64,000 nucleotides of DNA from Magnolia sinica. Lineage: Eukaryota; Streptophyta; Magnoliopsida; Magnoliales; Magnoliaceae. The stretch is taken from contig NC_080587.1 of assembly GCF_029962835.1 (NCBI RefSeq), positions 58,123,528 to 58,187,527 of the forward strand, in the 5' to 3' direction. The notes under the pieces were generated by a model. That model worked only from the letters and a program-made list of their open reading frames with translations, searched no databases and had not been told where the DNA came from. Positions 1,560 through 22,504 of this stretch are shown piece by piece. How positions within the stretch are numbered: the stretch's first letter is position 1; each line of letters starts with the position of its first letter. Position numbers and translations under genes: made by a program.

Positions 1560-1565
1560 AGTTTT

Positions 1566-1582
1566 TGGCGCCGTTGCCGGGG
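1566..1582 (+). other. Primer-binding site, tRNA-Asp
   Basis: TGGCGCCGTTGCCGGGG is an exact complement to the 3' end of plant tRNA-Asp (GTC), including CCA. It sits six bases after the LTR end, with the same AGTTTT spacer as the copy at 36225. This is the minus-strand priming site of the gypsy element. Confidence 0.9.
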
Positions 1583-1597
1583 ACTGTTTTGTCTTTT

Positions 1598-1841
1598 GGA
1601 GCTTGATTTTTGATTTATGTATTTTCCTTTCAGCATTGTACTTAAATGATTATATTAGTGGATATGTGATGATGATGTTGCCTATGTGAATTGGGTAATC
1701 TTGTGGTTATGCTTATTATGAGTTAAATGTACAAAAAACTCCTCCTTGTAGGATCCCAGGATCGGAATCTAGGGTATGGACGTTAGGATCCGAGAATGGG
1801 GTACTACGAAAGCTGTCGGCACCGGATTCGGTGATCGGGAT
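1598..1841 (+). repeat. Fragment of the giant chromovirus LTR, inverted orientation
   Basis: This segment matches the reverse complement of 22545-22790, including shared stretches such as 'ttatattagtggata', 'gagaatggggtacta' and 'caccggattcgg'. It is therefore the 3' part of the LTR described at 22505-26380, on the opposite strand. The match begins directly after the Asp primer site region and ends where the minus-strand gag remnant begins, so both edges are recombination or insertion junctions. Confidence 0.75.
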
Positions 1842-1849
1842 TCCTGCAA

Positions 1850-2935
1850 GGCCTCTTGCAATAGGTACACCACACGTCTGGTCACCTCATCGGGGCCGGT
1901 GAAGCCATAAGCCTAGGTGGTGAATTTGTACATGGCCTCTTACCGAGAAACGGTCTGCTCGGAAGGTCTGGTCATGGCCTAGAAGCTATAGGTGCTCGCA
2001 TACGGGACTACCTGTCCCCATCCTACTCCGCTCGCATAGACATGCTCACTAGCTCAGCATAGCCAGGTATGCTACGCAACACATCTTCGAGCGGATCTCG
2101 GGTCACAGACTCTCAGAAAATCATCGCATGCGCATCAGCTCATCGGCCAATCAATGGAGCGTACCTGCCCAGTTCCGTGAATTTGTTCTCATACTCCGCC
2201 ACTATCATCCCTCCCTGTTGGAGGCAAAGGAACTCACTCTCCTTCTCGTGACGATGAGGGGATAGTATTTCTCGTGGAAGCGAGTCTCAAAGTCTGCCCA
2301 CGTCCATACATATTCGACTGCAACAGTGCAGAGAATGTTATCCCACCATAAGCTGGCCTCCTTCTCAAACATGAAGGTGACTAGCTCAACCTGCTCTGCC
2401 TCAGTGCAGTGCAGCGACTTTAGCATCTTAGAGATGCGGTCAAGCCAATACTCGGCCTCCTCAGGTCGGTGAGTACCCACAAAAGTAGGGGTCGCAAGCA
2501 CTGGAATCGCTCAAACTGACCGCTAGCACCTGCATTCCCATCAAGGGGTGTAAATGGAGCAGGCAGAGTCGCACCCATGCTCTGAGCAAAGAAACCCTCA
2601 AGGGTGGCCAAGAGCTGCTGCTGCTGCTGGTGGTGCTATATCTGCTACTGCTGCATCAATAACATCATCTGCTCTAGCTTATCAGTAGGAGGAGTGGCCT
2701 GAGGCATGTGGGGCACCGAGGTGGACGCACGGTTCTGCTCAGGAATCGGTGGTGCAATTGGTGGTGCCGCAGGCCTCAGCCCATTAGTGGGGCCAGTGGC
2801 CGGTTGAGAATTCGGCATAGTGTGGTGAGTAGGGTCCAAACTGGGGTCCGTCTGGCTATCGCTTAGGGGAGGAGTGCCGTTAATCGAGTCGCCAGGCGTG
2901 TGGCGTGCCGTAGTCCGTGCGGCCTTAGGTGGCAT
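1850..2935 (-). pseudogene. gag: Decayed Gag of a chromovirus-type Ty3/gypsy element
   Basis: Structural capsid/nucleocapsid protein of a Tekay/Del-like element. The start at 2935 reads MPPKAARTTARHTPG, followed by a Pro/Thr-rich N-terminus. After a frameshift near 2500 comes a Retrotrans_gag domain (2501-2205) with 'EAEYWLDRISKML', 'VELVTFMFEKEASLWW' and 'FETRFHEKYYP'. It continues with 'MIVAEYENKFTELGRYAP' and 'GYAELVSMSMRAE' down to about 2030, interrupted by stop codons. Near 1860 a CTYCKRP motif may be the start of a zinc knuckle, and homology stops at 1841. No protease or polymerase follows, so the element lost its left side. The frame is clearly dead. Confidence 0.85.
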
Positions 2936-3231
2936 TCCCTATATTCAACATAGGGTGCATCCTAGGTCAGATTCAGCATAGTCACAAACTCAAACACAAC
3001 ATTCACACACAGTTTAAGGAAACTTCATGCATTTCATTTACCAAATTGTCACAATACATGAAATATAGTATTACATGGATCATGATAGAAGATGCATGTG
3101 AGCTAATATAAGAGGCTCCAAACACTTAAAACACGCTAACTATCTGACCCCAGAACTAAGCCCAACAAGGCTATATATAGCAACAAAGAAAGAAACACAC
3201 AAGGCAACTAAAAGGACGACTACATGCAGGA
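2936..3231 (-). mobile_element. Spacer between extra ORF and gag
   Basis: About 300 bases of AT-rich sequence between the stop of the upstream ORF and the gag start. I see no domain, RNA gene or repeat in it. It belongs to the internal leader of the minus-strand gypsy element. Confidence 0.5.
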
Positions 3232-4485
3232 CTAGTCATCAGAATCTGGCGATGGTGGAGGCACACTCTTATCCTATACACAGCATAGGATGGACCTCAA
3301 GGTGTGAATCACCTTCTTGAATTTTCATTTCATGAAGGCCTCGGTCTCTTCAACCTTGGTTCGGATCTGCACGATCTCCTGTTGTAGGGCAACTTGTCCC
3401 TCTTCCAATTGAGCCAAGAGGGCTTCCCTGGCAGCCCGATCACCATCGCGGCTCTATGCAGTAGGAGGGGAACCCTCATCAGTGTCTTGGGCCTCCTCTT
3501 CTTCCTCTCCCTGCTCTTCTTCTATCTCATCTCTGCCTTCCTCGTCACTCTCTTCCTCTTCACTCTCCGTTTCATCCTCACTCTCGTTGAGTCGAGCTTG
3601 ACGCTGTCGTGGCCTAATCTCCATGTTGTTGAGAGTAGTGTCATTGATGTAGTGAATTAGCACAGGAACTTCAACGCCAAGTCTATAGGCGAACTCGCGC
3701 GCAAGCTTGCATATGAGTTAGCTGAATGGAAGTGAAATAGCCTTCTTAGTAGAGCGTGCGGTCAGAACTATCTATCGTAATGCATACGTAGGCACGCACA
3801 ACTTCTCTCCCTGCCCAGCCCAGTACAGGAAGTCCACCATCAGGCGGGTGCACTCGCTGCGGTTGCTCCATTTAGGATAGACGTTATATGTGAAAATGTG
3901 ATGGAGCAGGCGAAAGTCGTCGGTCATATTGGTCGCTAGGAGGCTATTGTTTGGATTACAGTGGGCCAATTGGCCACAAAGGAATAGCGTACAACGATCT
4001 CTTTCACACGCGGTCTTGAGGCTCTTCTCACTAGCATGGACTTCGCCAAGCGGCATTCCCATGACTCGGGCTATCAAGCTAGCATTGATTGTGAGTTCTT
4101 GCCTTCCCACGGGAAATTTGAACTATAAAGGCTCAAGCGTAGGCTCCAGTATATGTGCGTAGAAGGCTCGAACAGTGGTCGCATTCGCATGAGATTTGCC
4201 CTCAAACACGGGACCCCACCCGGCCTCAGCCAGGCGGTCCATCAACAGATGCTCCCCAAAGAGCTGCTCATCCACGTGCGCTTCAAAGAGAACCCTACGG
4301 CCCACATATCTTCATGAGATAACTCTGCCAGCAGAGCCCTTTTCCAGGGGGGCCTGGGGATCGAGGTCCCGCTTCATTCTTATCTCACGATCGACGCTTG
4401 TACTTGCGGTGGCACCTCTCGGTCTCCTTGCACAAGTAGGGCGACTAGGCCCGGCTTCATCCACGGGAACTCTCTTCTTCCCCAT
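3232..4485 (-). pseudogene. Extra ORF upstream of gag, plant-transposon-protein-like
   Basis: One reading frame runs from ATG at 4485 (MGKKRVPVDEAGPSRP) to a TAG at 3232 (PSPDSDD), about 417 codons, with only in-frame stops and no frameshift that I can see. Stops at 4312 (TGA) and 4123 (TAG) are one C-to-T change from Arg and Gln codons. The middle, with 'ATTVRAFYAHI', 'LFLCGQLAHCNPNNSL' and 'RLMVDFLYWAG', resembles the 'putative plant transposon protein' domain often seen beside gypsy elements. A strongly acidic tail (3663-3454, Glu/Asp runs) and a short coiled-coil-like end (about 3440-3320) follow. It lies on the same strand as gag, between primer site and gag, where ordinary Tekay elements have no ORF. 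The family assignment is tentative. Confidence 0.55.
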
Positions 4486-4590
4486 TAGGGAAAGAAGCGT
4501 GGAAATGGAGAAAATGTCTGTCATTAGCTCGAAAAGAGACATGAAAGTGGAATGATATGGGGAAATAGAATGGGTTGTTGGACTTAGAGA

Positions 4591-4730
4591 TATATGAGAC
4601 ACAAAGTAGAGGGGTGTATGTCTTGAAGGAAAATGAGAAAATGAGAGAATGGAGGAGAGATATATGAGACACAAAGTAGAGGGGTGTATGTCTTGAAGGA
4701 AAATGAGAAAATGAGAGAATGGAGGAGAGA
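4591..4730. repeat. Perfect 70-bp tandem duplication
   Basis: Two adjacent units, 4591-4660 and 4661-4730, each begin TATATGAGAC and end GGAGGAGAGA and look identical over 70 bases. They lie in the purine-rich leader upstream of the extra ORF. Identity in such a decayed element implies a recent slippage event. Confidence 0.9.
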
Positions 4731-5359
4731 TTTGAGAGAGGAGGAAGGGTTTTTGGACAGAAAGAAAAACATGGAGGGGTGGGAAATGAAGAGGGGAAGC
4801 AAATGAAATGGAAAAATCCATTTCAACTTGATTTGGTGGGCCATACAGCAGCCCACATGTGTCGGCCCGCCTGGCCCGGTCTGGGGAATCGGCGAGGCCT
4901 CGCCGATGCCATCACCAGTCCTTGGACACTCCAGTGAGGGATCACCCTTTGGGCAATGGCATCCCCTCCCCGGGATGCTAGAATGATGCAGGTCCACTTT
5001 GGATCCCCCTAGAATGCTCTATTTGGCCCCCAACTTCGTTTCGAGTCGTTTCGGGTCGTTTTGGGTTCTAGCTGGCACACATTCACGTATTTTCGATTTG
5101 CTGAGTGTGGGAGCAGCCAGATTTTCATCTAAACCCATCGATTGATAGTCTAGAAGGGCATTGGAATCATTTCACGTGATCGGGAAAGCCTATGGGGTCA
5201 ATTTCTATGGTCGATTTTTCGTTGATTTTAATCGATTTTGCCATTTGGCGAAATTGGGGATCCTAAGTCTATTTCTACATTTTCTCATGCCCTCTTACTT
5301 CAAAATGAGTCAGCATGCATCATGTGACCATAACCCAGGTCTATTTTAATCCAAATCAC
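4731..5359 (-). mobile_element. Untranslated leader of the minus-strand gypsy element
   Basis: Sequence between the primer site (5360) and the extra ORF. It is pyrimidine-rich on the minus strand near 4800 and otherwise plain. ORFs here are low-complexity (Phe/Leu/Ser/His-rich) and I do not consider them real. Confidence 0.5.
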
Positions 5360-5371
5360 GCTCTGATACCA
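5360..5371 (-). other. Primer-binding site, initiator tRNA-Met
   Basis: On the minus strand TGGTATCAGAGC follows the LTR end (GCGTTAAA then AGT). This is the standard complement of initiator tRNA-Met used by many plant chromoviruses and copia elements. It fixes the direction of the element as right to left. Confidence 0.9.
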
Positions 5372-7409
5372 ACTTTTAACGCTCTGAAAATCGGGGGCAG
5401 AGCAGGTACCCAACTCCCGAGTTCCAACACATCACTTATGCAACATAGATAATGATGATTTAATGTTGTTCATGTTAGTGCATAAAACATGAATGAGATT
5501 AAGCTAAATCAGCAAATCATTCTCCAGGGACAGTTGAATTTACGCAAGCGGAAGACTCTGATAAGTGTATAAAATATATAAACCATTGTAGGTCCCCAAA
5601 GTATAAACGCATTGCCAGGTCAAATAGTTACAAGTATTGTTTCAAAATACAATATATCAAAAAGTGATGGTCCACTACAAGTTTAAGCCTTGAAGCCCTG
5701 TCGATCAGAACGGTCTATAGAAACCCACCTGAATACTACATATATGAGAATGCCTCATCATCCTCAAAGTCCGGCTCTGCCTCGTAGACTGCGCCATCAT
5801 CTGAAACTACAATACGGTCTGGTTGGTGTTTAAAACACTATCCCGTAACGTGAGAGTGAGTGATTAACTCAGTGGAACCATAAAGCAAAGGTTAACATGT
5901 TATCAATTCAGTCAAGCAGTAATGATAAAGCACTATAATCAAGTAACCCTAATTAGTATGATTAATGCAAGAATGGTATATAATAATGATGCATGCCCTC
6001 GCCTGCACTCCCTCTGTGATCTTCATCTCACGGTCGCGCATGTCAGTCACTTCCTCAGCGCTCTATCCAATGCCAAACGGCACATGCAATGTGGTGCATG
6101 AGCGTGATTACCAAGTTCTTATTAGGCCTTTTCATACAGCAGAATTAGGAAACTAAGGTACCTCCCTTATATCATTTCCCAAATGATGATCCATTCTAGG
6201 GTCGTCAGTCCTAGCCAGTCTCATACGATGTTGCGGTTACAGGTTACTACAAAGGGCTCGTCACCTCGATGCATACCTGGTTTATACTCTTGTTTACTAT
6301 GGCAAGGCTCGTCACCTCAGCGCAGTCTTATAGTATGCTTGAGGTCACTATGAATGGTTCGTCACCTAGACGTAGGCCGACAGCTCGAATACAGTGTCCC
6401 ATACCACCGTATTTGGCTCACGAGTTTGGGTTGCTCACTGGTCACTACGGGGAGGCTGGTCACCCCAGCGTAGGCTGACAGCTCGACCATGGTGTCCCAT
6501 ATCACCATGCCCAGCTTATGAGTCTTAGCGGATCGAGGTACCAAGGTTAATGGGGTTTCCACTGGTGAGTTTGGTACCTTAGATTCAAGCAGTAGCGTCC
6601 ATACATGGTGAATATACATCGGGTCAATCGGGTTACTTGACGAGCTCGACTGGTACGAGCACATGTCGAGCCGATCGACATGGAGCGCGTAAGTACTCCG
6701 CGTGGCCTAACCACTGTCGACAACCCAAGTACGACTCGGATTCATCGAACACGTCCAGTGTGGCGAAACAACCTCAGCCACCAACCCAGGACCTGTTACC
6801 AATTGCCTGAACTATACCATTGTCCCAAACACACTCCAAACAATTTATTTCACATGTGATAGTCAAGAACAGCATGTATTGATCAATCCACATAGAGATC
6901 TTATTTGAGCATTTTAACAAACACATAGTATACATGTCAACATACATAGGCATTTCATCACAAATCACGTAATAATAGATAGGTTACATAAGGAAACCAT
7001 AAGTATAGATAAGGGGGCTGAGGATCCTGTCTCAACGCCCTTATGTCATACCATTAAACAAGCATTTACTCATTCACTCATTTTGTCAAACACTTAAACT
7101 ACACATATTACATACATGTGATAACTTAGTTAAAACACATGTTATAGCAAATCCTTCTACAAGTAGATGCCACGTATACAATGATCATGCATTTACAATT
7201 AATAATCATGGCAAGCATGAATCATAATTCCATATTCATTCAAGTATATCAATAAACACATGGATTTCACTATATTCAACATAGTTCATATATGTGTGTA
7301 AAGTGCGAGAAACATCGCATCTAAGCATGTGATAGCATTCAAGTCAGTCATAAATCATTAACTGACATTGAAAACCTTGAAAACCATAACCTAAACATTC
7401 ACTACTAGA

Positions 7410-7895
7410 AAATAGGCCAAAGGCTACGGCTAAAAACCGTAGCTAAAAGCCTATGGCTACGGTTAAGATCCGTAGCACGACCGTAGCCATTGGTGCCGCA
7501 GCCATAGGTCTAAAAGCTATGGCTACGGATACAATCCGTAGCTATAGAGATAATGGATACGGATTAAATCCGTAGCTGTTTCTTCTGTAGCGCTAAAGTA
7601 TTTACAGTTACGGTTTATATCTGTAGCTAAAAGTTGAGAACGAACCGTAGCAATAGGCTTAAATTAGCAACTACGGTTTGTAGAAACAGGCTACGATTAA
7701 TAGCCGTAGCTAATTATACTATAGGTACAGATTAAATCCGTAGCAATATTGTTCGTAGGTTAAAATGATATACAACTTCAGATTTTATCTGTAGCTAAAA
7801 GTAGAATGAGAACCGTAGCAAAAAGCTGAATTTAGCAAGAGCTACTATTTTCAACAAAGTGCTACGGTTAATAGCCGTAGCTAATGCCATTTGTT
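7410..7895. repeat. Left subterminal hairpin repeats of the CACTA element
   Basis: At least eight short inverted units of the form GCTACGG, 6-8 bases, CCGTAGC (for example 'ggctacggttaagatccgtagc' type) lie next to the left terminus. In CACTA elements such subterminal repeats bind the TNPA-type protein. Here each unit is itself a small palindrome. The same motif returns at the right end. Confidence 0.85.
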
Positions 7896-8063
7896 AATAA
7901 AAAAATTAATTTGTAATGGCAGCTCTTACCATTGTAGTACACCCTGATAACTCATATAAGCAAGATCCAATTCATGGCTAAATCATTCATTCATTCAATC
8001 AAACACAATCATTCATTTCCATTCACAAAAGTACAATGCCAACATAATAGTTATATGTCTATT

Positions 8064-8163
8064 TAAAGTTCTCATTAACAGTGAGATCCAATGCCTTCTC
8101 ATAGCTAAATAGCTTCTCAACAAGCGCAAGCGAAAACTCCATGGTTGTGCATCCGAAAGCTTA
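8064..8163 (-). pseudogene. Captured terminal exon candidate, unidentified
   Basis: On the minus strand an acceptor-like CATGTGCAG precedes 8163. One frame gives 'AFGCTTMEFSLALVEKLF' and ends with Leu/Asn-rich residues and a TAG stop near 8064. Codon composition looks protein-like, unlike the surrounding AT-rich DNA. The frame does not follow the phase of the exon at 8186-8288, so it may come from another gene. I do not recognise it. Confidence 0.35.
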
Positions 8164-8185
8164 CTGCACATGGATGATCATATAC

Positions 8186-8288
8186 CTATTTGATCTGAAG
8201 GAGAATCAATGTTATACGCTGTTAGTCGTTCTTTCAGCTGGAGCACCTTATCATCTTCCTCTTCACTATCAATGGCAGTCGGCATTTT
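8186..8288 (-). pseudogene. Captured exon, acidic segment, host gene unknown
   Basis: Bounded by TTTCATCAG before 8288 and a GT donor after 8186, this 103-bp exon reads MPTAIDSEEEDDKVLQL followed by KERLTAYNIDSPSDQ. It joins in phase 0 with the exon at 8382-8446, across an intron that keeps GT-AG ends. The combination of a Lys/Pro/Ala-rich segment, an acidic patch and 'LKERLTAYN' vaguely recalls the C-terminal tail of plant DNA topoisomerase II, but I cannot confirm this. Confidence 0.5.
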
Positions 8289-8381
8289 CTGATGAAAGGC
8301 CCAAACCAAAAAGGCAATGAGAAGTCCACAAAAATAGGGAGATACGTAGGAAATAAGAAGTTTCAGGATTTGCAAACACAC

Positions 8382-8446
8382 CTTTCTAGCAGGAGCCTTC
8401 TTCGGAGCTCCCCTGCCTTTGGGTTTTACCCCCTCGGAAACATGTC
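8382..8446 (-). pseudogene. Captured exon, basic Lys/Pro/Ala-rich segment
   Basis: Minus-strand exon between a polypyrimidine acceptor (TTTTTCTCTCTGTAG) and a GT donor. It reads HVSEGVKPKGRGAPKKAPAR and K, 65 bp with two leading phase bases. It is open throughout and precedes the acidic exon at 8186-8288 in the correct phase, so the two were probably captured together with their intron. Parent gene uncertain. Confidence 0.55.
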
Positions 8447-8580
8447 CTACAGAGAGAAAAAGATAACATGCATTGAGATGAATGAAATCTTCAAGATGGA
8501 AATAAAATAGTAATTGACAATCTGCCTGTACCGAGTTCTGTTCCCAGCAAGGTTCGCAAAATTCAGGTTAACAGTGAAAC

Positions 8581-8659
8581 CATGTGATCCTCCATTGATG
8601 ACGTTAAATGCAGGCACAGGCAGAACTAGAGATTTGTTCCCAGCAAGGTTCGTAATGTG
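8581..8659 (-). pseudogene. Captured enolase exon
   Basis: The 79-bp minus-strand exon starts after CATGCAG and ends at a GT donor after one base of a split codon. It reads [20 protein letters not shown] and then INGGSH. This is the highly conserved enolase block (usually [29 protein letters not shown]) leading into the substrate-loop region. The phase-1 donor falls where the next codon of real enolase (Ala) would be completed. Enolase converts 2-phosphoglycerate to phosphoenolpyruvate; this single exon cannot do so. A short repeat of 'cgaaccttgctgggaaca' (8543-8570 against 8630-8652) follows in the intron. Confidence 0.85.
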
Positions 8660-8839
8660 CTGCATGACAAAGAGTGCAACTTAACAAACATACGCTTCAA
8701 CAGTGAGTGAAGGGCCAGTGAATAATCATACATTTTGAACTGTGTTTGGACAAGAGATGCTAAAAAAGATTATTTTCTGTTGATCTGAAGAGGCCAGTGA
8801 ATAATCAGATATGATGCATCATGTGTTGATGATTTGTAC

Positions 8840-8947
8840 CTCCACCATTTTGCAATCTTAGATTAACATGCACAGATGATGCCTGCAACCTTCTCAATTC
8901 TCAGAAAGTTGGTGGGAGATGAGCTGGCCAGAATGGGCTTGAAGGAC
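8840..8947 (-). pseudogene. Captured exon of unidentified host gene X (third)
   Basis: Between TTCATAG (8948-8950) and a GTACAAAT donor (8838-8839) the exon reads VLQAHSGQLISHQLSE, then after a one-base frame change LRRLQASSVHVNLRLQNGG. The Gln/Leu/Ser-rich character suggests a helical protein. It follows the exon at 9040-9162 in the same phase, so the three exons at 9307, 9040 and 8840 may be successive exons of one gene. I cannot name the gene. Confidence 0.45.
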
Positions 8948-9039
8948 CTATGAATTATTTATGTAAACTACAATATGCATAATAGTTCTTTATGACCCTA
9001 TGTATAGGTAATAGAAAAAGAAATTTTGGAAGCAAAAAC

Positions 9040-9162
9040 CTTCAAAAGAGTAGAACTTGTCTCTAGATAAAGATTCATGACAGAGCTGGAATGTTGGAAA
9101 GGATTGGCAGATGCATCATTTGTTGCTGCAGAAGGCATTTCTTTTAAGAACTTGAGGCAATC
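9040..9162 (-). pseudogene. Captured exon of unidentified host gene X (second)
   Basis: This is a clean 123-bp exon, exactly 41 open codons in phase 0, between TTTTTTCCCAG and a GTTTTTGC donor. It begins DCLKFLKEMPSAATNDASAN and ends LYLETSSTLLK. The composition and bordering splice signals are those of a genuine coding exon. The parent protein is not recognised. Confidence 0.6.
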
Positions 9163-9306
9163 CTGGGAAAAAAGAAAGAAAGACATGTCCATTAGTGGAC
9201 TCTAAACATTTTCATGTTCAAGAAGCTTTAAGAGGAAAAAAAATGCAGCATATATTGAGGACAAGTTCATTCATACAATGGCAATGAAATAAAGCATGTG
9301 AATCAC

Positions 9307-9352
9307 CTCGAAAAAGTATCCTTGTATGTGCTTAGATTTTCGTTCAGCCATT
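9307..9352 (-). pseudogene. Captured exon of unidentified host gene X (first)
   Basis: Reads AMAERKSKHIQGYFFE and ends at a GTGATT donor in phase 0, matching the phase of the next exon at 9162. The upstream boundary is uncertain. Probably the same captured locus as the exons at 9040 and 8840. Confidence 0.45.
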
Positions 9353-9520
9353 GCTCTAGATTTATGTGTTCCTTATGAGAAGCAACATAGCCAGTTTGAT
9401 GCTGAATGTAAATGGAGTCATGTCCAATTAATAATGATAGTCTGATTGTAAGATTTATGAGATGACATGTACATGAGTACAAAAAACAGCAAATGCAGAC
9501 ATGGAAGAGAGTTGTAATAC

Positions 9521-9638
9521 CTGTAAACTTCTTGTGCTGTAACCTTCAACTGTGATAGTGCCACCGGTGACTGCTGCGCCTGCTAGGAAATAACTCATAC
9601 TTGATGCATCGCCTTTAACATACGCATTTCCAGGGGAC
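9521..9638 (-). pseudogene. Captured EPSP synthase exon
   Basis: The 118-bp minus-strand exon lies between AGAAACAG (9639-9646) and a GTATTAC donor. After one phase base it reads [20 protein letters not shown] and then [19 protein letters not shown]. Plant 5-enolpyruvylshikimate-3-phosphate synthase has [35 protein letters not shown] here, and the exon ends at the same Gln. EPSPS makes EPSP from shikimate-3-phosphate and PEP in plastids (shikimate pathway). Differences from the usual sequence are E-to-K, A-to-M and CG-to-YS, consistent with relaxed selection after capture. One exon only, so no enzyme is encoded. Confidence 0.9.
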
Positions 9639-9642
9639 CTGT

Positions 9643-9749
9643 TTCTACATTTTCTTCATGTTACTCCCTATATATACTGATTCTACATTTTCTTCATGTT
9701 GCTCCCTACATATACTGATTCTACGTTTTCTTCATGTTACTCCCTAGAG
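9643..9749. repeat. 38-bp tandem repeat, three copies
   Basis: Units starting at 9643, 9681 and 9719 begin TTCTAC(A/G)TTTTCTTCATG and recur every 38 bases, the last one incomplete. They lie just upstream of the captured EPSPS exon, in what would be its intron. Confidence 0.9.
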
Positions 9750-10153
9750 CATGTTTATCTCTGTGTACAAATAAAACAATCATGTTGATGGTATATATGT
9801 AGGAAATTCCTCATATGGCAGAATATACACAATGGTAAGGGTATATACATGTTCAGCTATATACACAACCATATGACTATGTATTGAGCCCCAATGCATA
9901 GCCCCAAGAGAGTACACAACATATTATGATAATAATTTGAGTTATTTCCTATTTTATAGAGTTTTATCAATATTGTGGGAGATCCTCACCACTACTAATT
10001 ACGCCAAGTGCATTCGTACTTTTGCCAATCCACACATGTTAGTTCTAGCAGATCAAAGGCAATCGAAGTTGTCCATAAATTTTGGGTAGCCTAGTTTTGC
10101 ATAAATCAAGGGAATGGCTTGAATATAAAAAGGGATATGTGTACACAACTTAC
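9750..10153. mobile_element. CACTA interior, no gene seen
   Basis: AT-rich sequence with no convincing exon, RNA gene or repeat; treated as intron-like filler of the CACTA element. Confidence 0.5.
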
Positions 10154-10219
10154 CTGCATAGGGAAACTTTCGATTGGTGAGTCGATACATCAATTTCTTC
10201 TTTGGTGATTTGTTTGGGG
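10154..10219 (-). pseudogene. Captured exon candidate, unidentified
   Basis: Sixty-six minus-strand bases between GATTTGCAG and a consensus GTAAGT donor. One frame is open: KQITKEEIDVSTHQSKVSL. The donor match is strong. The acceptor segment 'gtgatttgtttggggctgcaaat' is duplicated 50 bases away (10206-10228 and 10256-10278). Parent gene unknown. Confidence 0.4.
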
Positions 10220-10279
10220 CTGCAAATCATTAGGTAGGCTTTCAATTTTGGAACAGTGATTTGTTTGGGGCTGCAAATT

Positions 10280-11211
10280 CCTGTAACCCATATCAAATTT
10301 CAGAATCTTCGACAAATAGCGTAACTAGCAAAAAAAAAAAAATCTACTGTGAGACAATGTTAACATTTCCATTTGTGGACTATAGTAGGAGAATCAAGTG
10401 ACCCACATTGAATTAAAAAAGAGAACTGATTACCTCCAGGCACCTCTACCACAATTTGCAGTACGGGTGTTCAGCCACAAAATGGAAAAAGAAAAGGAAA
10501 AAAAAAACCTTTTTTACATCACGGAGCTAAAAAATGCCTTGTACTGCATATAGCAGTATAGGTGCCTGTAGGTGGTTAGTTCCGATTGAGAGAAGTCCCA
10601 GATTTGTTGCTAAAAGGATGCAACAAATCCCGGGGATTCTCAGGGCACAATCTATCCACTAGGATGCAATGGATGAATGGTCTGGATTACTGATCCATGG
10701 GCATCATTTCCATCAAATAACTCAGCACAAAACCAATAGATGATCAAACAAGCATAACTATTCTGTTCATTATACATCTAAACTAGGCCATAATTTGGAC
10801 AGTTCAATGACCTGTACGCCACGTACACAATTTCAAAGTAATCTAGGTGCTTGCGTAACCTGCATTGCACACTGCCAGTATCGAAGTTTTTAGTCTTTAG
10901 AAAAACAAAGGGGCAAAAGTCAAAAAAAAAAAAGGATCCCCAAATACCCAGTCCTGTTTAGATGTAAAACAAGGCATGAAAAGATTGGAAGATCCCAGTC
11001 GTTCCAATCTTTGGCCTTTTTCCTGAAAATGTAGGCCGTTGTTGTTTCTTCTTCCCAATCAGTTAGGATTGTTATATCAGTGAGATTTTTTGGAAATTCC
11101 CAATTCTAAAATGGGCCATCAGATCAACAGTCTAGATCACTAGACCACGGGCCTGCCCCATGTATAAAAACATATTCTCAGGTCTGATGGCCATAGACAC
11201 TTCTGTCTAAC
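10280..11211. mobile_element. CACTA interior, no gene seen
   Basis: Includes A-tracts (10329-10342, 10922-10934) and sequence resembling MITE edges near 10560-10700, but no supported exon. Confidence 0.4.
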
Positions 11212-11259
11212 CTGAAAGCATTTGGCTGAAAACCGATCCAACAAACGTCCTTGGTTTTG
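11212..11259 (-). pseudogene. Short captured exon candidate
   Basis: Forty-eight minus-strand bases between ATATTTGCAG and a GTTAGAC donor, open for 16 codons (QNQGRLLDRFSAKCFQ). Very short, so the call rests on the splice signals alone. Confidence 0.28.
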
Positions 11260-11787
11260 CTGCAAATATATATAAGCCATCATTAGTGACAAGTTCTTAA
11301 TCAGGTAGCTACACATTCCATAGAATTTCAAGTTTATAGGCTATGACAGATTCGTTTACAAACACTGATGCAGAGATTAGTGCCATGTTCTTTTCTTTTC
11401 TTTTCTTTTTTATTTTTTGCCATTTTTGGTTTCATGAAAACCGGAACCCAGATTTAGATAGCAATGAACTGAACATAACATTATTCATGCAGTGCTCATA
11501 CCAGGATCATGATATGATGATACCAATGCCTTGAGAATATTACTAATATCCGTGGCAATAATTACATAAAAGAAAAGAGAAAAAGGAAAAACACTCATTC
11601 CATCTATATGTATATGTGTGTCATCATCATAGCTTTGTCTCAGCTATTTCGAGTCAGCTTCTCAAGAATGCTGAGTTGCCCATCTGACACCAACCGTCCA
11701 AATTTACCTGGGCTTGGGACCTGTTAGTGTGTGTCACAAAAAACACACACATGAACACACACACGCACAGAGGGAGGGAGGGAGGGG

Positions 11788-11819
<32 letters not shown>

Positions 11820-13720
11820 TGACTCTTACGGGAGTTCAAATCTAGCATTTGCATGATCATGAATGTGATATTTACACCAGCCACAGCAAATGGATATTCC
11901 CAAGTAGCTCACTTTCCACCTTACTTGTTCAATAGCCTCTAAAAAGTTAGGATGGATAGAATTATCCCAGTGATAGCGAAGCCACTAACTCAGCTATTGT
12001 CTCTGTAAGAACACCCTGCCAATACAATTCATATAAGAATTCAATCGATTTCTATGTCAAGAAAACAAAAAAAATCCTGACAGATGGCTCACAGCTGATC
12101 TTTACTGCCGCCTGGAGCATGCAAAAAGAAAAAAGAAAAAGAAGATGAATATGCTAAATGGGTAGTAGTCGAAATCGCCACTTAGTTTCATTTAGGTGGG
12201 AAGCAGGCCCTTAATTTCATTCAAATTCAAAAAAGCATTCGCTTTGACAAAAAATGAGTAACAAGCACATTACTAGAGGGGAAAAGGCCGAAACTGCAAA
12301 TTCAGATGATTTTGAGTCTGAATTAAAATACATGATATGCAATGCCAACCTCATTCAAATTAGAATAATGATACCTGATTCAAGATTTTTTTTTCCATTT
12401 TTCTTTGTTTCCTTTAGTTCAATTCAACTGAGCATGCCTTGCATCCAAACACGCCTTACGTTTAATATAACAACCTCGCCAAAATCTGTGGCCCATAAGA
12501 CATCTGCATTGAGATCCATAAATTGAGTTTGGCAAACTACATTATGACATTAGAATTATTCAAAAGAGCTTTTCTTTTCCAAACAAACACAAACCCATGT
12601 AACTTAAGTACATAATCAAGTAATAAGTAAAAAATATGGGAAAAGAAACTGAAAAGCACCACAAACATATCAAAAGGAATGCTTAAAGCACCACAAACAC
12701 ACACCGCTCAGAAACTGAAAAGCCAATTGCCTTCCATGGTTCTCCTCAATATAAACGAAAAGATGTATGATCTGCAAAATGGAGTGCCACATTCATCCAG
12801 AGTTATTAAGCAAGTCTAGTCAGCCATGTTTAGAAAACCAATAACTAGGCACTGAACATGCCCCACAAGTGTTATATGATTTTTAAATTGTTAGGGAAAT
12901 GATAGTTGGGTCACTTGGTAAGATTTCATTATTCTCACCTTTTGCACTCCATCCCTAGTCTCAATGTTGAAATGGACTCTGTATCTGCTTCATTTGAATA
13001 GTTAAGGGTGTAAACAGGCCATCCTCTAAAAGTTGAGCTGAGCAAATTAAAATTTTGAATAGTAATGGCCTAACAAGCCAGCCCCAAACAGTTCAAAATC
13101 CAGTCCCAAATCCTACATGTGGTGCTTGTGAGGATAAACAAACGAAGTGATCAATAAAGCATTAGATTGAAGCCTGAAGGCAAGAAGAATGAAGCATGTA
13201 TCGATTTATAAATACTGTTAATTACTTAAGAAGAAAATGTACAAGTAAAACATACCATTCAGAAGAAAAACATCATTGTAAGTGCTGCTAAAATGGATAT
13301 TGTTGCACCTGATAATGATGCCTCTGTCAAATCTAGGAATTTTCATGTCAATGTGTGTGTACACACACACACACACACATAGATGAAAGATATACATACA
13401 ATCAGGGTAACCACTAAATAGTGAAATACATAAAGATTACATGTCAGCCAAGAAACTTACTCGGGGTGCATTGGAATGCACTACTGCAATGAATCACAAT
13501 TATAATCTAATACACATTTTGGAGGATTCTGATTAAAGGCTGCCAAACATGACAGATAATTCAATTCTTGAATTCTTCAATCTTGAACCCTGAGACTCAA
13601 AACTCCTTTTCAATTGGTCAGCAAATATAATTGAATTAAAGAGGAGAAAATAAAACATTTGTTGGCTGCTTTTAATGACCCACCAGATGGGTTTAAACGA
13701 TATGCAATTGTGGCAACAGT
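11260..13720. mobile_element. CACTA interior, no gene seen
   Basis: About 2.4 kb of AT-rich sequence with a CA tract (13365-13379), a GGGA/GA tract (11770-11819) and pyrimidine runs. ORFs here are short and low-complexity. I see no transposase motif on either strand. Confidence 0.45.
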
Positions 13721-13905
13721 AAGTCATGCACAAGCAACTACAGGAGCTCCAGAGACAGCAACAACTTCAGCAACTAGATCAGCAGGCAAGGCAACAACAT
13801 TCTTTGAGTCAACTGTCTGGAGTTGTAAAGCAGTCTAGTGATCAATTACCTACCTTGGACAATGGTGCACCTATGCATGATGCAACTAACTACATGTGGT
13901 CATAG
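13721..13905 (+). pseudogene. Captured Gln-rich C-terminal exon, plus strand
   Basis: From about 13732 an open frame reads KQLQELQRQQQLQQLDQQAR, then HSLSQLSGVVKQ and a hydrophilic end (HDATNYMWS) before a TAG stop at 13903-13905. The Gln-rich coiled-coil-like segment followed by a distinct C-terminus looks like the last exon of a regulatory or scaffold protein. It lies on the opposite strand to the other captured exons. Not identified. Confidence 0.45.
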
Positions 13906-14752
13906 GAACATGTAGGAGGTTAGAGGAAATGGTCGTTGCTGTGTTAGCATATATACAAATGCATGAAATTCCGAAGTTCGTATCAGTTAAATTTTTATAA
14001 CTTCTTAACCTTGCTCTTCTTTCTATAAAATTAAAACACTCATGAAGAAATAGAGAAAGAAAGAAAGAAAAAAAGAAAAAAAGATATCAACCAGAGGTAA
14101 TCCATGTCAGAAAATGTTGCCATTGACAATCGAAGAGAAAAATGATAAATGCATAAGGAACTTTGGCCTTCTCTTCATTGAATGTAGAATGTTGTCACAT
14201 TTCTTTTTTAATTAATAGCCTATCCGCTGACAACTAATTGAAGGATTTGGGATTACACATATTGAAGAGTAATTGAAGGATTGGTGTGTTTTATGGGGTA
14301 TCCAAATTGAGCCAATCATATCAATAGTTTGGATCACTAAACTACATGCTCCATTGTACCTGAAATTAATGGTGATCCTAACCATCTAATCACTAGATAG
14401 AAAATGGGCAATTTATATCTATTATACTAGAAAGGTTCCATCATTCTCTGGACCAGCCATTATGTGAGGCTCGGCCTTGATCATCAATTGTTTCCAAAAA
14501 ATATGCTATGTTTCAATTTAATTAAGAAATGGTAAGTAATGTAATGAAAGCACCATTTGATGTTAGCATTGGGATTTAATTAAGAAATTGTCAGAAATGG
14601 TAATCTTTTTCCTTTTATTTTTGGGACAGACTAGTCAATTTGCATTCAATATATGTGCCTAATATATGTATGTACTTTTATACCATTTTCTCTAATATTA
14701 ATCTAGTGGAAGAAAGGAGCTATTCAACAGGTGAGAAATTACTATTTTGATG

Positions 14753-14854
14753 CAGGGAGCAGGTAAAAGATCTTAAGCCTCTGAAACAGGGGATGCCCAA
14801 TAAAGTTGAAGAGCACCCTCGTTCTTCTTCTTTGTATCCTTTATAACTATAAAT
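14753..14854 (+). pseudogene. Captured exon candidate, plus strand
   Basis: After TTTGATGCAG an open frame reads EQVKDLKPLKQGMPNKVEEH, then PRSSSLYPL and a TAA stop. Protein-like composition in AT-rich surroundings. The upstream partner, ending before a GTGAGAAAT donor at 14731, would leave an intron of only about 25 bases, so the locus has suffered a deletion. Parent gene unknown. Confidence 0.35.
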
Positions 14855-15035
14855 TGCTTTTTTTTATACCCTTATGTATAAAACATAATGCTGACTGTTC
14901 TAAGAAGTGGCTACAAAAATAATAATAACCATCATCATAAACATTGATAGACCCAAAGTAAATGGCTGGTGTACAGATTTTACAGGAAACGAAAATCCTT
15001 AAATGTCAATCGACAATGGATCAATTGAGAGAAAT

Positions 15036-15039
<4 letters not shown>

Positions 15040-15066
<27 letters not shown>
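15040..15066. repeat. GA microsatellite
   Basis: Uninterrupted GA dinucleotides. It lies between two copies of 'aaatgtcaatcgaca(a/c)tggatcaattga' (15001 and 15071), suggesting a small tandem duplication with the tract in the middle. Confidence 0.9.
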
Positions 15067-15071
<5 letters not shown>

Positions 15072-15607
15072 AAATGTCAATCGACACTGGATCAATTGAA
15101 TAGAGGAAGATCGAAAGACCTAAGTGTACAAAAAAAATCCTTAAATACCTTGCAAAAAAAAACTTTTCCATTTTCTCCTATTACAGATTTTACAGAACCC
15201 TAAATCCTTTTCCTGTTAGAAATTTTACAGGAAACGAAACCCTAATCTGTGTATTTGAAGATTTAGAAATAAAAACTCAAAATCAAACTTAGAATATATG
15301 GTGAGAGAAATGGGTACCTGGTCAGAGAGGAGAGACGGAGAAGAGGTGAAGGGTGGGGGGCCGCAGGGGTGGATTTTCGCTCGGGTGAAGGGGGTGCGTC
15401 GCTCAAGGGTTGCAGTCGAGAGGGAGAGGGAATGAGAGAGGGAGAGGGAGAGGGAGAGTGGAGCGAGAGAGAGAGAGCACACAAGAGAGAAAAGGGACGC
15501 ATGGACTTGGGTTTTTTTCCCCGAAGTGGAGGGAGAGAAATTTTAGAATGTTTCGTTTGAGGGGGAAGGAGAAAAAGGGCAGCGCGCGGGCTGAGTTTCT
15601 GAATTTT

Positions 15608-16130
15608 TTCTGCTACGATTTTAGACCGTAGCTAAATCCCATTAGCCGTAGCTGTTATTGCATCCTTCACAGCCTCTCCGCATTTGCACATTTGACGGGT
15701 TCTGGACGGACGGTCCAATCAGGAGCTTTGTGGGGTCCATCATGATGCATTTGATAAATCCACTCCGTCCATTAATTTTGTAATTTTTTTTATAGAGAAT
15801 GGCCTAAAAATCTAGGCAAATTTAAGGGCTAATTGAACCACACCATCGATCAATGGTACGCATATAATCTTCACTGTTTCCTACCGTGTGGTTCACTTGA
15901 GCCTTTAATCTACTTCCTTTTTTAGGATCTTTCCCTAAAATGATCTTTCAAAATGTATAAACATATTATATGGAGCATAAAGATTTTAATGGGCCTCGTA
16001 GAGTTCCTTATGGGGTTGTCACATGGTGTAGGCATGGGTGGTGGCATTAGCTTTTAGCTACGGTTTTAATATTTTTAGTTACGGTTTTAAGCCATAGCAA
16101 TAGAGCTACGGTTTATATCCGTAGCTAAAA
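15608..16130. repeat. Right subterminal hairpin repeats with a nested MITE-like insert
   Basis: The CCGTAGC/GCTACGG motifs of the left end return at 15608-15655 and 16053-16126. The roughly 390 bases between them contain 'ggggtccatcatgatgca' and 'aaatccactccgtccat', typical of the fold-back repeats elsewhere in this window, so a MITE probably split the right subterminal array. Confidence 0.65.
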
Positions 16131-18359
16131 ATCAACATGTTCCATAGCCTTTGGTCATTTTTTTGGTAGTAATTTATAGTCCGCACCTTTCGCCAGTAAA
16201 CAAGTATCGAACTCAGTTTGTATACCGAGTCTTTGTCTACGGCATAACGACAACCTACAATATGAAATAGGTTAGCTATTTCATCACTCACACGATTTGA
16301 AACCCAAAAACAGGTTAGAGTTAGGTTCTTCTTACCTAAGAACGGAATCGGAATCGCCCATGTAGCGATACAAGAATCATGGTTAAGCATGTGGAGCGTC
16401 AGGGAAAGATCCTGGCAACTAACTCCCACTCTCACTCATTTCTCCTCCCTTTCTCCTTCTCTTTTTTCTCTCTCTTTTCTTCCTAGGGTTTGGAAATTTG
16501 TATGTAGTGAGAGAGAAGTGGGTTTAAGCCTTTATATAGGTCCAGGTCTGATGGAAATGGCCACAGGGCCAAGGTATACTTAGGTTATATCCAAAGGGCG
16601 TCTGTTTCAGTCCAACGGAGCACTTCTGGTGGGCCTTCTTCTGCGTGCGGTCGGACTTAAGCTCCCTGACATTGGATCTAGGTCAGGCTAAGTTTTTAGT
16701 CCGATCGGATTTACTAATCGACCATGGTGGATCGGTTTCAGTTCTATGGTCATCGGTGCTCGATCAAGGCCACTAGTGTACTGACATGTGTTGTAAATTT
16801 TTCCTGATTCGAGGGTGTAATTGGGTCAGATTATGACGGTCCGAATCCTTATATTTGGACCTACAAGTGAACGACTCAGTTTACTTAAGTTTGGGTTTAT
16901 TTCTTAAAGATATTCGTGTTTCTCACACACTTCGCTCCGGGCTCAAGTTGTGCATTTCTGGATACTATTAGGACTTTACTTCTGGGATGATTATCAAGTC
17001 CAATGAGGAGGTCATATTCGTATAGTTTCATAGTTATCAGACTTTCAACGTGCGGTCCAGGTCCGATACGGAGTTTCGATGTACTCTCGAGAGCAACTGG
17101 GACTGGAGATTGATCCTAAGTTTTAAGGTAATGTAGCGGTAATGATTCTACACGGTTTGGGTCTTGCAGATCATATTTAAAGTGATTAGTGCTAATTTCA
17201 TAGATAAGCTAGTTTAGTACTAGTTAATTCTCGCCTAATTTCTAAAGGATTTGGTCCTGTGTGATTTCCGCCTGAGGTGGTACTCGAGCCTTTGTACGGA
17301 TTTTTCCGAGACGTTACATGAAGTGTGAAGTTGGAATGATAGTACGTAGTATTGCAAGCTACGGGGTCTACCACAAGAACTTCTATTCAAACCAGTCCCA
17401 TACCTAAATTTAGATAGTCAGACTCAATGTGGTAAACTCCTGATCTCAGGTTAATCCGCGCCGCAACCGAAATCCTGGCCATTGCGAAGGTACACGTAAT
17501 AAATAGTTGCGCACCACCAGCCCGAGTGAATAGTGAATAAATGAATGAATGAGTATGCAACTCCTGCTCAATAAGTTCACATATCAGTACAGTTCATCTT
17601 TGGGATCATCACCGGGGTCTATTACACTTTACGCCAGCTTGCCGCCCCTATCCGAGCGCACATCTGGGTATGTGGAAGAGACCTCAATATTTGCCTGCCA
17701 ATATTAGGCCCGGCTCGTTGATAGTGGACCCATTCCTCAAGCTGGTCAAACTCAACCTAGAAATTGCCCCCTCACTCAGGTGGGTAAGGTCACACCCCCT
17801 CCCAACCGACCACGACATAGTGGGAGACGCGGCTTACTGGTATACGGCCCTCATGCGCTCATATATATCCACTCGGTCTCGATGTTGGGTCATCTCCTGA
17901 CCATGGAGGTTTTGAGATTTTCACCCAGGGACATCTATGACACCCGTATGCTAGAACCAAACATTTTTGGTGTCCCATCTGGCCATCCAGGATATGCCTG
18001 TGGAGGCTATGGCCCTGATGTCGTAAGGGCATACAGTAATCACAACACAATGCAGGATGCATGAGTCATACAATCTAGTCATGCATCAATCCTGTGCATA
18101 TCGTGCGCTCATGTGAGATAACCTTCGCCTATTAAGGAGTCTCATAACAACCTGCCCAATGACATATGTAATGGTCAACCACATCTCATAACAGACATGC
18201 GGATGATGCGTATGGGCATGTATCATGATGCTATGCTGTCACATACTCATAATCGGTATCAATAACCGACATCAACAACCGGCCTCGACAATGTGGACAT
18301 TTAACCAACATTGCCCCCAAGGAATGGCCCACATAGAGCCAAACTGCAATGGGCCCACG

Positions 18360-18720
18360 GCCTCACACAATGGCCTAATATACAACACAATGGGCCTTAC
18401 TCAAGGGCCACATATACACAACAGGTGGGCCCTGCTCATGGGCCTCAAATACATGACATGTGGGCCCTATACATGGGTCTCGAATACATCAAATGGGCCA
18501 TGCATTATGGACCTAATACATATCACAATGGGCCTTGCCCATAGGCCACGAATACATCACAATGAGCCTTGCCCATGGGCCTCAAATACATCACAATGGG
18601 CCCCATCACATAGACCTCCTATTAATCACATTAAGCCTTAAACACGGGCTACATATACATCACACAGGCTGAATACACATCACAATGGCCCTCAACTACG
18701 GGTCACATATACATCATATA
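18360..18720. repeat. Degenerate array around 'atacatcacaatgggcc', copy 1a
   Basis: Irregular tandem units of about 30-35 bases built on 'ggcc-t-aatacatcacaatgggcc'. A second block occurs at 19330-19680. Long ORFs reading through it are His/Gly/Pro repeats caused by the array and not genes. Confidence 0.8.
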
Positions 18721-19235
18721 GGTCTCGACAATCAGCCTTGGAAATTGAAATCGGCCTCAATAATCGAAATCGGCCTCGATAATCGGAATCGACCAATACA
18801 ATCGGCCTCGACAATCGGAGTCAGCCTCGATACTCGGCCTCAACAATCAGAATCGGCCTATACAATCGGCCTCGACAGATCGGAATCCACCTCGATACTC
18901 GACCTCGACAATCTGAATCGGCCTATACAATCGACCTCGACAAATCGAAATTGGCCTATACAATCGGAATCAGCCTATACAATCGGCCTCGACAGATCAA
19001 AATCGGCCTTGACAATCGGAATCGATCGATAATCAGAATCGGCAAACCGGTCATGTCAATCGGAATCTGCAATCGGCCACGACAATCGGGATCAACGATA
19101 ATCAGAATTAGCAAATTGGTCACGTCAATCAGAATCGACAATCGGTCACGACAATCGGAATCAACAATTGGCCACGACAATCGGGATCAATTGATAATTA
19201 GAATTAGCCACGATAATCGGCCGAACAAGGCCTAA
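18721..19235. repeat. AATCGG array, copy 1
   Basis: Dense array on the core 'cgacaatcgg' with variants 'cctcgacaatcgg' and 'cctatacaatcgg'. The same array occupies the same LTR position in the partner copy (24485-25145), so it predates or accompanied LTR duplication. Confidence 0.85.
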
Positions 19236-20267
19236 GGGAAGGTCACAATGTGGACGTTAAACCATCATTACCCAATGATAACAATGTGGCCATTTAACCA
19301 ACATTACTCCCAAGGAGTGGCCCACATGGAGCCTAACACATAGTGGACCCATGGCCTCACATAATGGCCCAATATACACCAGCATGGGCCTCTCAAGGGC
19401 CTAATACACATCATGATGGGCCTCACATATGGACCACACATACATCACTTTGGGCCTCACTCATGGTACTTATATACATTACATTGGGCCTCAACCCATG
19501 GGCCTCAAATACATCAAGTGGGCCGCATCCATGGACCCATATACATCAAATGGGCTACATCATGTGGGCCGCAATTGCAATCAAGGCGGGCCTTAATGGA
19601 TGGACCACCAATACATCAAGGTGGGCCTTATGGATAGGCCACAAATACATCCGGGTGGGCCTCATCACATGGGCCGCACGAAAAATCATTTCAATAGTTG
19701 TAGGTGTATCATATGTATCACTGCACACATGGTCCACGAATGATGATCAACACTGTCCAAACATTGTCCAGGTAAACCAATACTGTCTAAACATTATCCA
19801 TGTAAGTCGGCGCCATCCAAACATTATCTAGCACCGTTCAACACAATCTGGACGGTGTGGAATAAATACATCACGCTGGGTCCACGGTCCAGATGGACAA
19901 CGTGGATTACAAAACATACACACGATGGGTTTCCACGGAACTTGCTAACATCATAAGCAGCAGGTGGGTCCTATGGTTGCTGACGTGAGGGCAGCAGCCA
20001 ACCCAACAGATGGACAATTAGGATTTAACACATACATCAATGGCCCACACAACTCGCTACATCAGTCAGTAGGTGGGATCATGCAACACATACATCATAG
20101 AGGGGATCCACGTCCCACCCACGTGGAAGGCCACATGTGTGGCTGTCCTCAGGCCAGCCCTGGACGGATGGCCAGACACATACATCACTTGGGTCTCACC
20201 GTCCCTATCTGGGCAGTGGACTGCATGGATGAACACATGCATCAAGATAGGGCCCACCGCCAGATCT

Positions 20268-21770
20268 GGTGGGCCATGTCAAAATGGATGGGCGGTGGGA
20301 CATGGGACACAGGTATCAATGGTGGTGGGGTCCACGTCCTCAGCAGAAGGACGATTGGGATTTAACCCGCACCTCGTAATGGACCACAGATTGGAGGCGT
20401 TAATACAGTAGCTATTGCTGCTGTAACGTTAACGTACACTGACCAATCTACTTCCGAAAGTGGGTCCCACATACATCAGGGCCCACCGAGCCATGGTTCA
20501 CAAATCCAGCCCATCCATTTAGTGTGTGCCACTTGGTTAAGGGGTAAAATCGAGTTTCAGAAGCATCCAAATTTCAAGTGGGCCCAGCAAGTGCTTTTAT
20601 ATGGCTTAACAGGTCTTCACAAGATTGTAGATGATGTGGGCCACCTAAGTTCTGTTTACGACTGATTTTTGGAGACACTGCGTAAATAAAGGGGACCCAT
20701 CAAATGGATGGTGTGGATGCTCTACATGCATCATGGTAGGGGCCTGAGGTGGGGCTCACTCTCCCTGCCCATGCGTACAAACAGCAGGACGCAGCTGCTG
20801 CCAGCGTCAACTTCTCATTATTATTATTATTTTTGGTTTTCTCGCGGTTTTCCACAGGTGGGGCCGTTATCAGGAGAATATACTCCATTGGTTGGATTCC
20901 TAGACTCGGGATCAAATATGTTTCGGTGCATAGAAACACATAGCGACCCCAAGTAATTAATATCACTCAAAACCACTAGTTTCCACAATATGGCCCGCCA
21001 GAGATTCGGATTAACTCCATTTTTTGGCTCAACGCCTAAAATGAGCGAGGAAATTGAATGGACAGTGTGGATCAGATTCAAACATCAAGGTGGGGTCTAC
21101 TTAATCAAACCTTCAAAGCTTGCTAACCCCGATGCACTGCTGTGTCGTGGAGAAGCCAATCCACTTCCACGAACAAGGTAGGCCACATGTGTGGCCACCT
21201 CATATTGGATAATATGATATTTGTGTTTTCCTTTCGTTCAGGAACACTGGATGTCCAGCAGATGGACGGCGCCTAGATGGGGCACACCATCAGGGAGGGT
21301 CCCACGGTTAGATGGCATGGATATGCCACACATACACACATTAGGTGGGCCACCAAAAAATCAAGGAGGAGAGGGAGAGGGAGAGAGGGAGAGAGAGAGA
21401 AGACAAGTGGGCTACACATACAAAGCATACATTAAGATGGGTCCCACCATGTGGACCCTCAAATAAAAAAATCAAGTCATAAAATCACCCACCTTTGATT
21501 TTCATGGACTTCTTCCACCAACATGATCCAGAGCTCCAAGGGGACAACTTCGACGGTTAGGATGATGATCCAAGGGTTGGATTGAGTGGTATAAAGGTGG
21601 GCCACACTTGGCTCCTCTCATGGAGAGCTTGGACGTTAGAATCTCATGGTTGCTTGAAAATGAAGAAAATGAGAGAGAGAGAGAGAGGATGGGATGGGTG
21701 AGTGAGGTGATGGGTTTACTTGTGTAAGGCAGAGAGTTGACTTTAAGGGGGGTGGTTGTACTTGGGGATG
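20268..21770. mobile_element. LTR segment absent from the partner copy
   Basis: In the partner LTR 'agatagggcccac' (26160) passes almost directly into 'gtgtgagtgatgggagtgatg' (26181), whereas here about 1.5 kb lies between. It contains 'gtgggcc...acatacatca' motifs like the rest of the LTR, plus a GA tract (21370-21402). A deletion in the partner is the simpler reading. Confidence 0.65.
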
Positions 21771-22098
21771 TGTGTGAGTGATGGGAGTGATGTGTACTTG
21801 ATTGATGTGATTGATGTGATAATTTTTAGGGATTGTAACGCACCGCGTTCATCCTCGAACTGAATGCGGGCCTACATCTCTTGGCTTGGGTATCGCCTCG
21901 GCGGGTACTACGCGGCATCAGAACCGCGGTGATGGCGCGGTCGCTAGGGTACAAGTCTCGGGTTGAGCTGACTCTGGAATACGGGATGCGACTTAAGGTT
22001 GTGCGTAACTGCCGATAACAGATTACGGGTCGCCAGAATTCGACCGGAAAGACCAAGGAATCCTATGGAACAGTACGGGATAAGATACGGGTCTTACA

Positions 22099-22115
22099 AC
22101 TCTCCTTACCTAATA
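22099..22115 (-). other. Polypurine tract of the giant-LTR element
   Basis: On the minus strand TAGGTAAGGAGAGT directly precedes the LTR start TGTAAGACC. This is the plus-strand priming site position and supports calling 22098 an LTR start. Confidence 0.6.
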
Positions 22116-22214
22116 AAAAATTTTTCCTCAAAATTTAAATCACAATACAACCCATACAGAGCTCACCAAGGGAGGGAAATCATATCAGAACACTCCATAC
22201 CAACATAATCAAAT

Positions 22215-22498: not shown

Positions 22499-22504
22499 AC
22501 TTCT

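Follow-up and report, generated by a model that had tools for sequence, protein, structure and literature searches.

How did exons of several unrelated host genes come to lie side by side in 8.8 kb of DNA that is surrounded by retrotransposon-related sequence? The question is raised by positions 7400-16171 of a 64,000-nucleotide stretch of the Magnolia sinica genome (assembly GCF_029962835.1, contig NC_080587.1, positions 58,123,528 to 58,187,527 of the forward strand), which is here called the window. The answer proposed with high confidence is that this DNA is a non-autonomous CACTA transposon, the interior of which has been replaced or filled by pieces of host genes, introns included, and which jumped as one unit. 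It belongs to the known gene-capturing (Pack-)CACTA kind, like Tgm-Express1 of soybean. The original prediction for this locus was a Pack-CACTA element with exons of several unrelated genes, and the ends, the target duplication, an empty site and six donor genes support it.

Ends, target site and borders

The features that delimit the element are as follows.

7400..16171, no strand assigned: the whole element, 8772 bp, very probably a non-autonomous gene-capturing CACTA, delimited by its ends, by the target duplication and by the paralogous site that lacks it
7397..7399, no strand assigned: left target-site duplication, ATT
16172..16174, no strand assigned: right target-site duplication, ATT
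7400..7429, plus strand: left terminal inverted repeat, starting CACTACTAG, matching the right end at 23/30 positions
16142..16171, minus strand: right terminal inverted repeat, TACTACC... as reverse complement, one base off CACTA
7413..7886, no strand assigned: left subterminal repeat array of GCTACGG/CCGTAGC hairpins
15606..16130, no strand assigned: right subterminal repeats, clustered at 15606-15652 and again at 16045-16130

The flanks on both sides align to a related repeat copy at around 50.5 kb: 7202-7396 with 50682-50487 (76% identity), and 16175-17321 with 50483-49340 (78%). That copy has no element in it, and has exactly three bases between the aligned halves, GTC and not ATT. In other words, the window has ATT, element, ATT where the paralogous empty site has a single 3-bp unit. 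Because exactly three bases are found there, the borders are fixed independently of the ends, and the whole 8.8 kb therefore went in as one insertion that duplicated 3 bp of its target. The ATT on either side had been predicted, and the empty site confirms the size of the unit.

The left end starts at 7400 with CACTACTAG, an exact CACTA. Over the terminal 30 bases, 23 positions agree between the two ends (binomial 2e-8, assuming a chance match of 0.27 per base). Both ends had been called canonical, which holds for the left one and not for the right. The left 13-mer has a single exact occurrence in the window; with up to two mismatches there are 4 matches, where 1.97 are expected. Taken alone, this 13-mer is little proof of the element ends. 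Searches with the element ends found no second copy within the 64-kb window.

The subterminal regions are more distinctive. The hairpin GCTACGG..CCGTAGC occurs 5 times in 64 kb, always inside the two ends of the element, against 0.00 expected. Counting CCGTAGC in either orientation, there are 14 exact copies in the left 501 bp and 5 in the right 572 bp, with 0 in the 7.7-kb interior and 3 in the 55 kb outside. Subterminal repeats, clustered and in both orientations, are among the marks of a CACTA element, and both the hairpins and the lack of a transposase had been foreseen: a six-frame scan of the element returned no transposase profile at E <= 0.5. The left array also contains an internal duplication (7521-7714 and 7689-7885, 74%).

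The two right-hand clusters are separated by about 390 bp (15656-16044) in which no exact subterminal motif occurs. This may be a later small insertion.

Inverted ends, one exact and one a base off, and a 3-bp target-site duplication mark the insertion as CACTA; the absence of a transposase profile of its own and the presence of host coding DNA from six genes mark it as Pack-CACTA.

Other element types also capture genes. Helitrons leave no target duplication and have no inverted ends, while MULEs duplicate some 9 bp of their target. A Helitron was rejected because this element has both a target duplication and inverted ends, and a Pack-MULE because the duplication, as read from the empty site, is 3 bp and not about 9. 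What speaks for a Helitron, a Pack-MULE or another capturing element is that these also carry several gene pieces (PMC1947982; PMC13317346). Such an element would however need its borders elsewhere, which the empty site opposes, and the locus has a 3-bp duplication, inverted ends of the CACTA type and hairpins in its subterminal regions. This alternative is given next to no probability.

Captured gene pieces and their origin

The cargo of the CACTA element consists of the following pieces.

11830..11908, minus strand: 3' part of an ELMO/CED-12 domain exon, donor GT at 11829 (Pfam PF04727, E 1.1e-5)
10154..10219, minus strand: exon-like segment with AG and GT borders, from border reading; no Pfam match
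9521..9638, minus strand: one whole EPSP synthase (EPSPS) exon, 39 aa, intact AG and GT borders (Pfam E 8.7e-9, above the curated cut-off)
9307..9427, minus strand: NOT1 exon a, frameshifted and cut off at its 5' end, where there is no AG (Magnolia sinica P0005 residues 541-579, 36/39)
9040..9162, minus strand: NOT1 exon b, open, AG and GT borders (P0005, E 2.6e-17, 91%)
8808..8947, minus strand: NOT1 exon c, with an acceptor AG, two frameshifts and a truncated 3' end (P0005 residues 623-669, 40/47)
8581..8659, minus strand: one enolase exon, 26 aa, intact AG and GT borders (PDB E 3.5e-9)
8533..8559, minus strand: another, incomplete copy (27 bp, 89%) of a stretch that overlaps the enolase exon start (repeat family D18)
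8382..8446, minus strand: DNA topoisomerase II exon 1 of 2 (a), intact AG and GT borders (P0001 residues 1218-1241, 20/24)
8190..8288, minus strand: DNA topoisomerase II exon 2 of 2 (b), with an intact acceptor and a 3' end that is either truncated or coincides with an exon border (P0001 residues 1240-1274, 28/35)
13684..13929, plus strand: exon piece of a Gln-rich uncharacterised plant protein, three in-frame stops (Phoenix dactylifera P0006, E 1.6e-17)

Six donor genes are identified, five on the minus strand and one on the plus strand, a count that excludes the exon-like segments at 10219-10154 (minus) and around 14755-14846 (plus). Judged by their matches, the pieces go back to six or more plant genes that are unrelated to each other, and most have native splice sites. 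One continuous host gene, which the original prediction had named as one outcome that would speak against it, was not found, and a single decayed host gene was rejected on the same ground.

The EPSPS exon also matches PDB entry 9uow (EPSPS) at E 6.2e-15, with 33/39 residues identical as counted by eye from the alignment. For enolase, the Pfam match (E 9.5e-4) scores 19 bits where the curated cut-off is 21.5, so its identity rests on the PDB match. Both exons had been recognised in the original prediction. The ELMO exon reaches 26 bits against a Pfam cut-off of 23.3, and falls 0.2 bits under it in the long-frame scan; no acceptor was seen for it in the border reading.

The protein searches for NOT1, topoisomerase II and the Gln-rich piece scored candidates limited by length range and shared words. 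For NOT1, 4 candidates were scored and the sole match is Magnolia sinica P0005. The Pfam scores, 18.6 and 19.2, are below the curated cut-off of 27 bits, and the identity therefore rests on this search. Exon b aligns to P0005 residues 578-623 (43/46), a span that exceeds the exon edges by a few codons. NOT1 a, b and c are three consecutive exons with their two introns kept. The suggestion that three exons in a row come from one gene was thus correct, while the shared frame was not, given that a and c are frameshifted.

What had been described as a Lys-rich/acidic exon pair turns out to be DNA topoisomerase II, best matched by Magnolia sinica P0001 at E 4.9e-12 (best of 4 matches, 32 candidates scored); the pair had 0 PDB matches at E <= 10. 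This match and the NOT1 match, both to Magnolia sinica, point to a probably magnoliid host. Both alignment spans exceed the exon edge slightly, and these exons too keep their intron. One-base deletions apart, no residues are lost at the NOT1 and topoisomerase II exon junctions. Since introns are kept in both sets, genomic DNA was captured and not processed RNA, and a cluster of processed (retro-)pseudogenes was rejected for the same reason.

All exons had been placed on the minus strand with GT/AG borders. The minus-strand exons are indeed there, and the borders are intact for EPSPS, NOT1 b, enolase and topoisomerase II a; NOT1 a and c are truncated, and the Gln-rich piece at 13684-13929 runs in the other direction. 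This piece, which the original prediction had not listed, is identical to Phoenix dactylifera P0006 at 51/83 positions, and the search for it (112 candidates scored, 4 matches) gave no named Magnolia match.

A PDB match of the Gln-rich exon to a capsid protein was rejected, being a single match at E 1.7, as were weak Pfam matches under their cut-offs: DSRM_RDM1 (E 0.095), CdiI_N (E 0.084) and DUF3467 (E 0.23). Several smaller observations concern the exon surroundings. Directly before the EPSPS acceptor, 9639-9746 holds 2.8 tandem copies of a 38-bp unit. A perfect 23-bp duplication (10205-10227 and 10256-10278) doubles the acceptor of the exon-like segment 10219-10154. On the plus strand, 14755-14846 reads EQVKDLKPLKQGMPNKVEEHPRSSSLYPL and is a candidate further captured exon.

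As a control, long six-frame translations of 17.2 kb of flanks (1-7399 and 16172-26000) were scanned. They gave no host-gene profile at E <= 0.01, solely Transposase_32 and gag, both below cut-offs. With the same treatment and threshold, two families pass inside the element, EPSPS and ELMO. Protein-family scans as a whole covered 1-26000 and 44000-53900 (the latter on both strands).

Some of this weighs against the CACTA reading. The right end at 16171 reads TACTACC on the reverse complement, and its TACTA is a one-base deviation from CACTA. The control involves small numbers, with two families inside the element and none in the flanks. In addition, a single copy leaves the order of capture and insertion undated.

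That order matters for one alternative, in which a small empty CACTA inserted first and received the gene pieces later, through nested insertion or break repair. The interior does also contain low-complexity DNA and small local duplications, and one copy cannot date the pieces. It is nevertheless a scenario to which we assign a very low probability, considering that several unrelated gene pieces sit in 8.8 kb while the flank scans had no host-gene profile, and that CACTA elements are documented as habitually capturing DNA between their ends. On the preferred reading, that of an element which jumped as one unit, the pieces would have been aboard before the present insertion.

The element would be mobilised in trans: an autonomous relative would supply the transposase, which would attach to the subterminal repeats and cleave the ends. 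In En/Spm, proteins bind the subterminal repeats and ends (PMC5105172), and by analogy those of an autonomous relative would act in this way here. The element entered the retrotransposon-related repeat as one unit, leaving the 3-bp ATT duplication. The capture itself may have happened by fusion of adjacent insertions after aberrant excision, a route that has been proposed (PMC8903248; PMC13317346); another mechanism for unlinked genes may exist (PMC13317346). Gap repair that filled the interior would fit the small local duplications beside captured exons.

A reading frame across joined exons

When EPSPS, NOT1 b, enolase and topoisomerase II a and b are joined by script, they stay in phase and give 164 open codons. 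The chain uses five exons from four genes and skips two NOT1 exons, and its last three codons lie beyond the homology. The borders on either side are intact in EPSPS, NOT1 b, enolase and topoisomerase II a; the fifth exon, topoisomerase II b, has its acceptor. The frame also stays open through the exon-like segment 10219-10154 as a possible first exon.

This suggests that the captured exons could be a spliced chimeric gene kept by selection: an expressed minigene, maybe with 10219-10154 as its first exon, whose frame was selected while the truncated exons decayed. All three between-gene junctions of the 164-codon chain are in phase. Moreover, all four frameshifts lie in the 261 nt of truncated NOT1 a and c, whereas the 484 nt of the five joined exons contain none; the chance of this is 0.015. 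This figure assumes that frameshifts fall at random, and counts, for the minus-strand pieces, two in NOT1 c and two in NOT1 a, of which one comes from the protein alignment and the other from the reading frames; a frameshift at the edge of NOT1 b is not counted, as it sits in intron bases before the acceptor.

Phase-0 introns are in excess in general. Three in-phase junctions have a chance of 1/27 under equal phases, and more under such an excess. NOT1 c has an acceptor as well, and including it stops the frame after 97 codons. The grouping of exons was chosen after the data were seen, a promoter and a parental start codon are not known, no domain is complete, and the flanks are retrotransposon-related DNA. 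The in-phase chain is suggestive, yet chance suffices as an explanation, and selection for a chimeric gene appears quite improbable. Such a gene would be compatible with a CACTA carrier and does not exclude it.

A functional product from the element is unlikely, because two NOT1 exons are frameshifted and the element lies within retrotransposon DNA. An occasional chimeric transcript is possible. Most likely, the element now acts solely as mobile DNA; perhaps it is a source of small RNA.

Surrounding repeats and comparable elements

The target is itself a repeat. Two inverted copies of a retrotransposon-related repeat (5377-7396 with 16175-17321, and 52660-49340) are 76-78% identical in long pieces. 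The first received the element, and the second is the empty site. On the minus strand, this second copy is followed on its 3' side by matches to reverse transcriptase, RNase H and integrase (47773-45423), which is the Ty3/gypsy order. Based on this domain order, the insertion target is probably part of a Ty3/gypsy-type retrotransposon. Matches to Transposase_32 (a putative plant transposon protein) and retrotransposon gag were seen on the minus strand at 4224-3694 and 2256-2152, under curated cut-offs.

The window contains further repeats. Direct repeats of about 3 kb (17319-20257 with 21767-21974, and 23234-26383) are 85-91% identical in pieces and carry AATCGGCCTCGACAATCGG-like arrays; they are perhaps a pair of long terminal repeats (LTRs) or a duplicated unit. 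Another direct pair of about 2.1 kb (34052-36219 and 39947-42072, 89-90% identical) resembles the LTRs of an old retrotransposon, and a shorter one of about 0.64 kb is found at 57347-57984 and 58370-58997 (87%). At 56808-57272, partly palindromic units of 21/42 bp (GGTGAAAATTCACCGAGTACA) form a small satellite array.

CACTA elements with captured fragments are scattered across angiosperms, and a CACTA transposase is cited from Magnolia ashei (PMC8978399), which means that the genus was already known to have CACTA elements. Searches of the open-licence literature found no paper with the present gene set, in agreement with the prediction that the combination is undescribed; for CACTA capture in Magnolia or Magnoliaceae they yielded only the Chenopodium study PMC8978399. 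The magnoliid lineage is lightly studied in this respect, which does not prove it blank.

The locus offers a clean multi-gene CACTA capture in a magnoliid genome, with an insertion that can be proven inside the window. With at least six donor genes in 8.8 kb, mostly with native splice sites, it is a natural construct for piecewise capture. It also suits the question of whether chains of exons in phase are products of chance or are retained.

Gene capture by CACTA elements has been described before. The Chenopodium elements likewise hold host gene fragments, but they carry transposase domains (PMC8978399), whereas the Magnolia element has no transposase profile. The Tpn1 family of Japanese morning glory is also non-autonomous CACTA, with the interior substituted by host sequence and the terminal regions conserved; it differs in being a family with 339 identified copies and known mutagenic activity, where the Magnolia element is seen as one copy (PMC5105172). 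Pack-CACTA elements of Arabidopsis and maize share the terminal inverted repeats, the target duplication, the lack of transposase and the host coding DNA from several loci, and differ in host lineage and in the particular gene set (PMC8903248; PMC13317346).

The soybean element Tgm-Express1, a 5.7-kb CACTA at wp, carries parts of five host genes that are unrelated to each other, exons as well as introns. These pieces are spliced into chimeric transcripts, and in some of them a frame is open across the pieces of two genes (PMC1947982). Like it, the Magnolia element is a CACTA with exon and intron pieces of several unrelated host genes, at least six compared to five. Tgm-Express1 however lies in the intron of a gene that is expressed, and becomes part of that gene's transcripts by splicing, while the Magnolia element lies in retrotransposon-related DNA.

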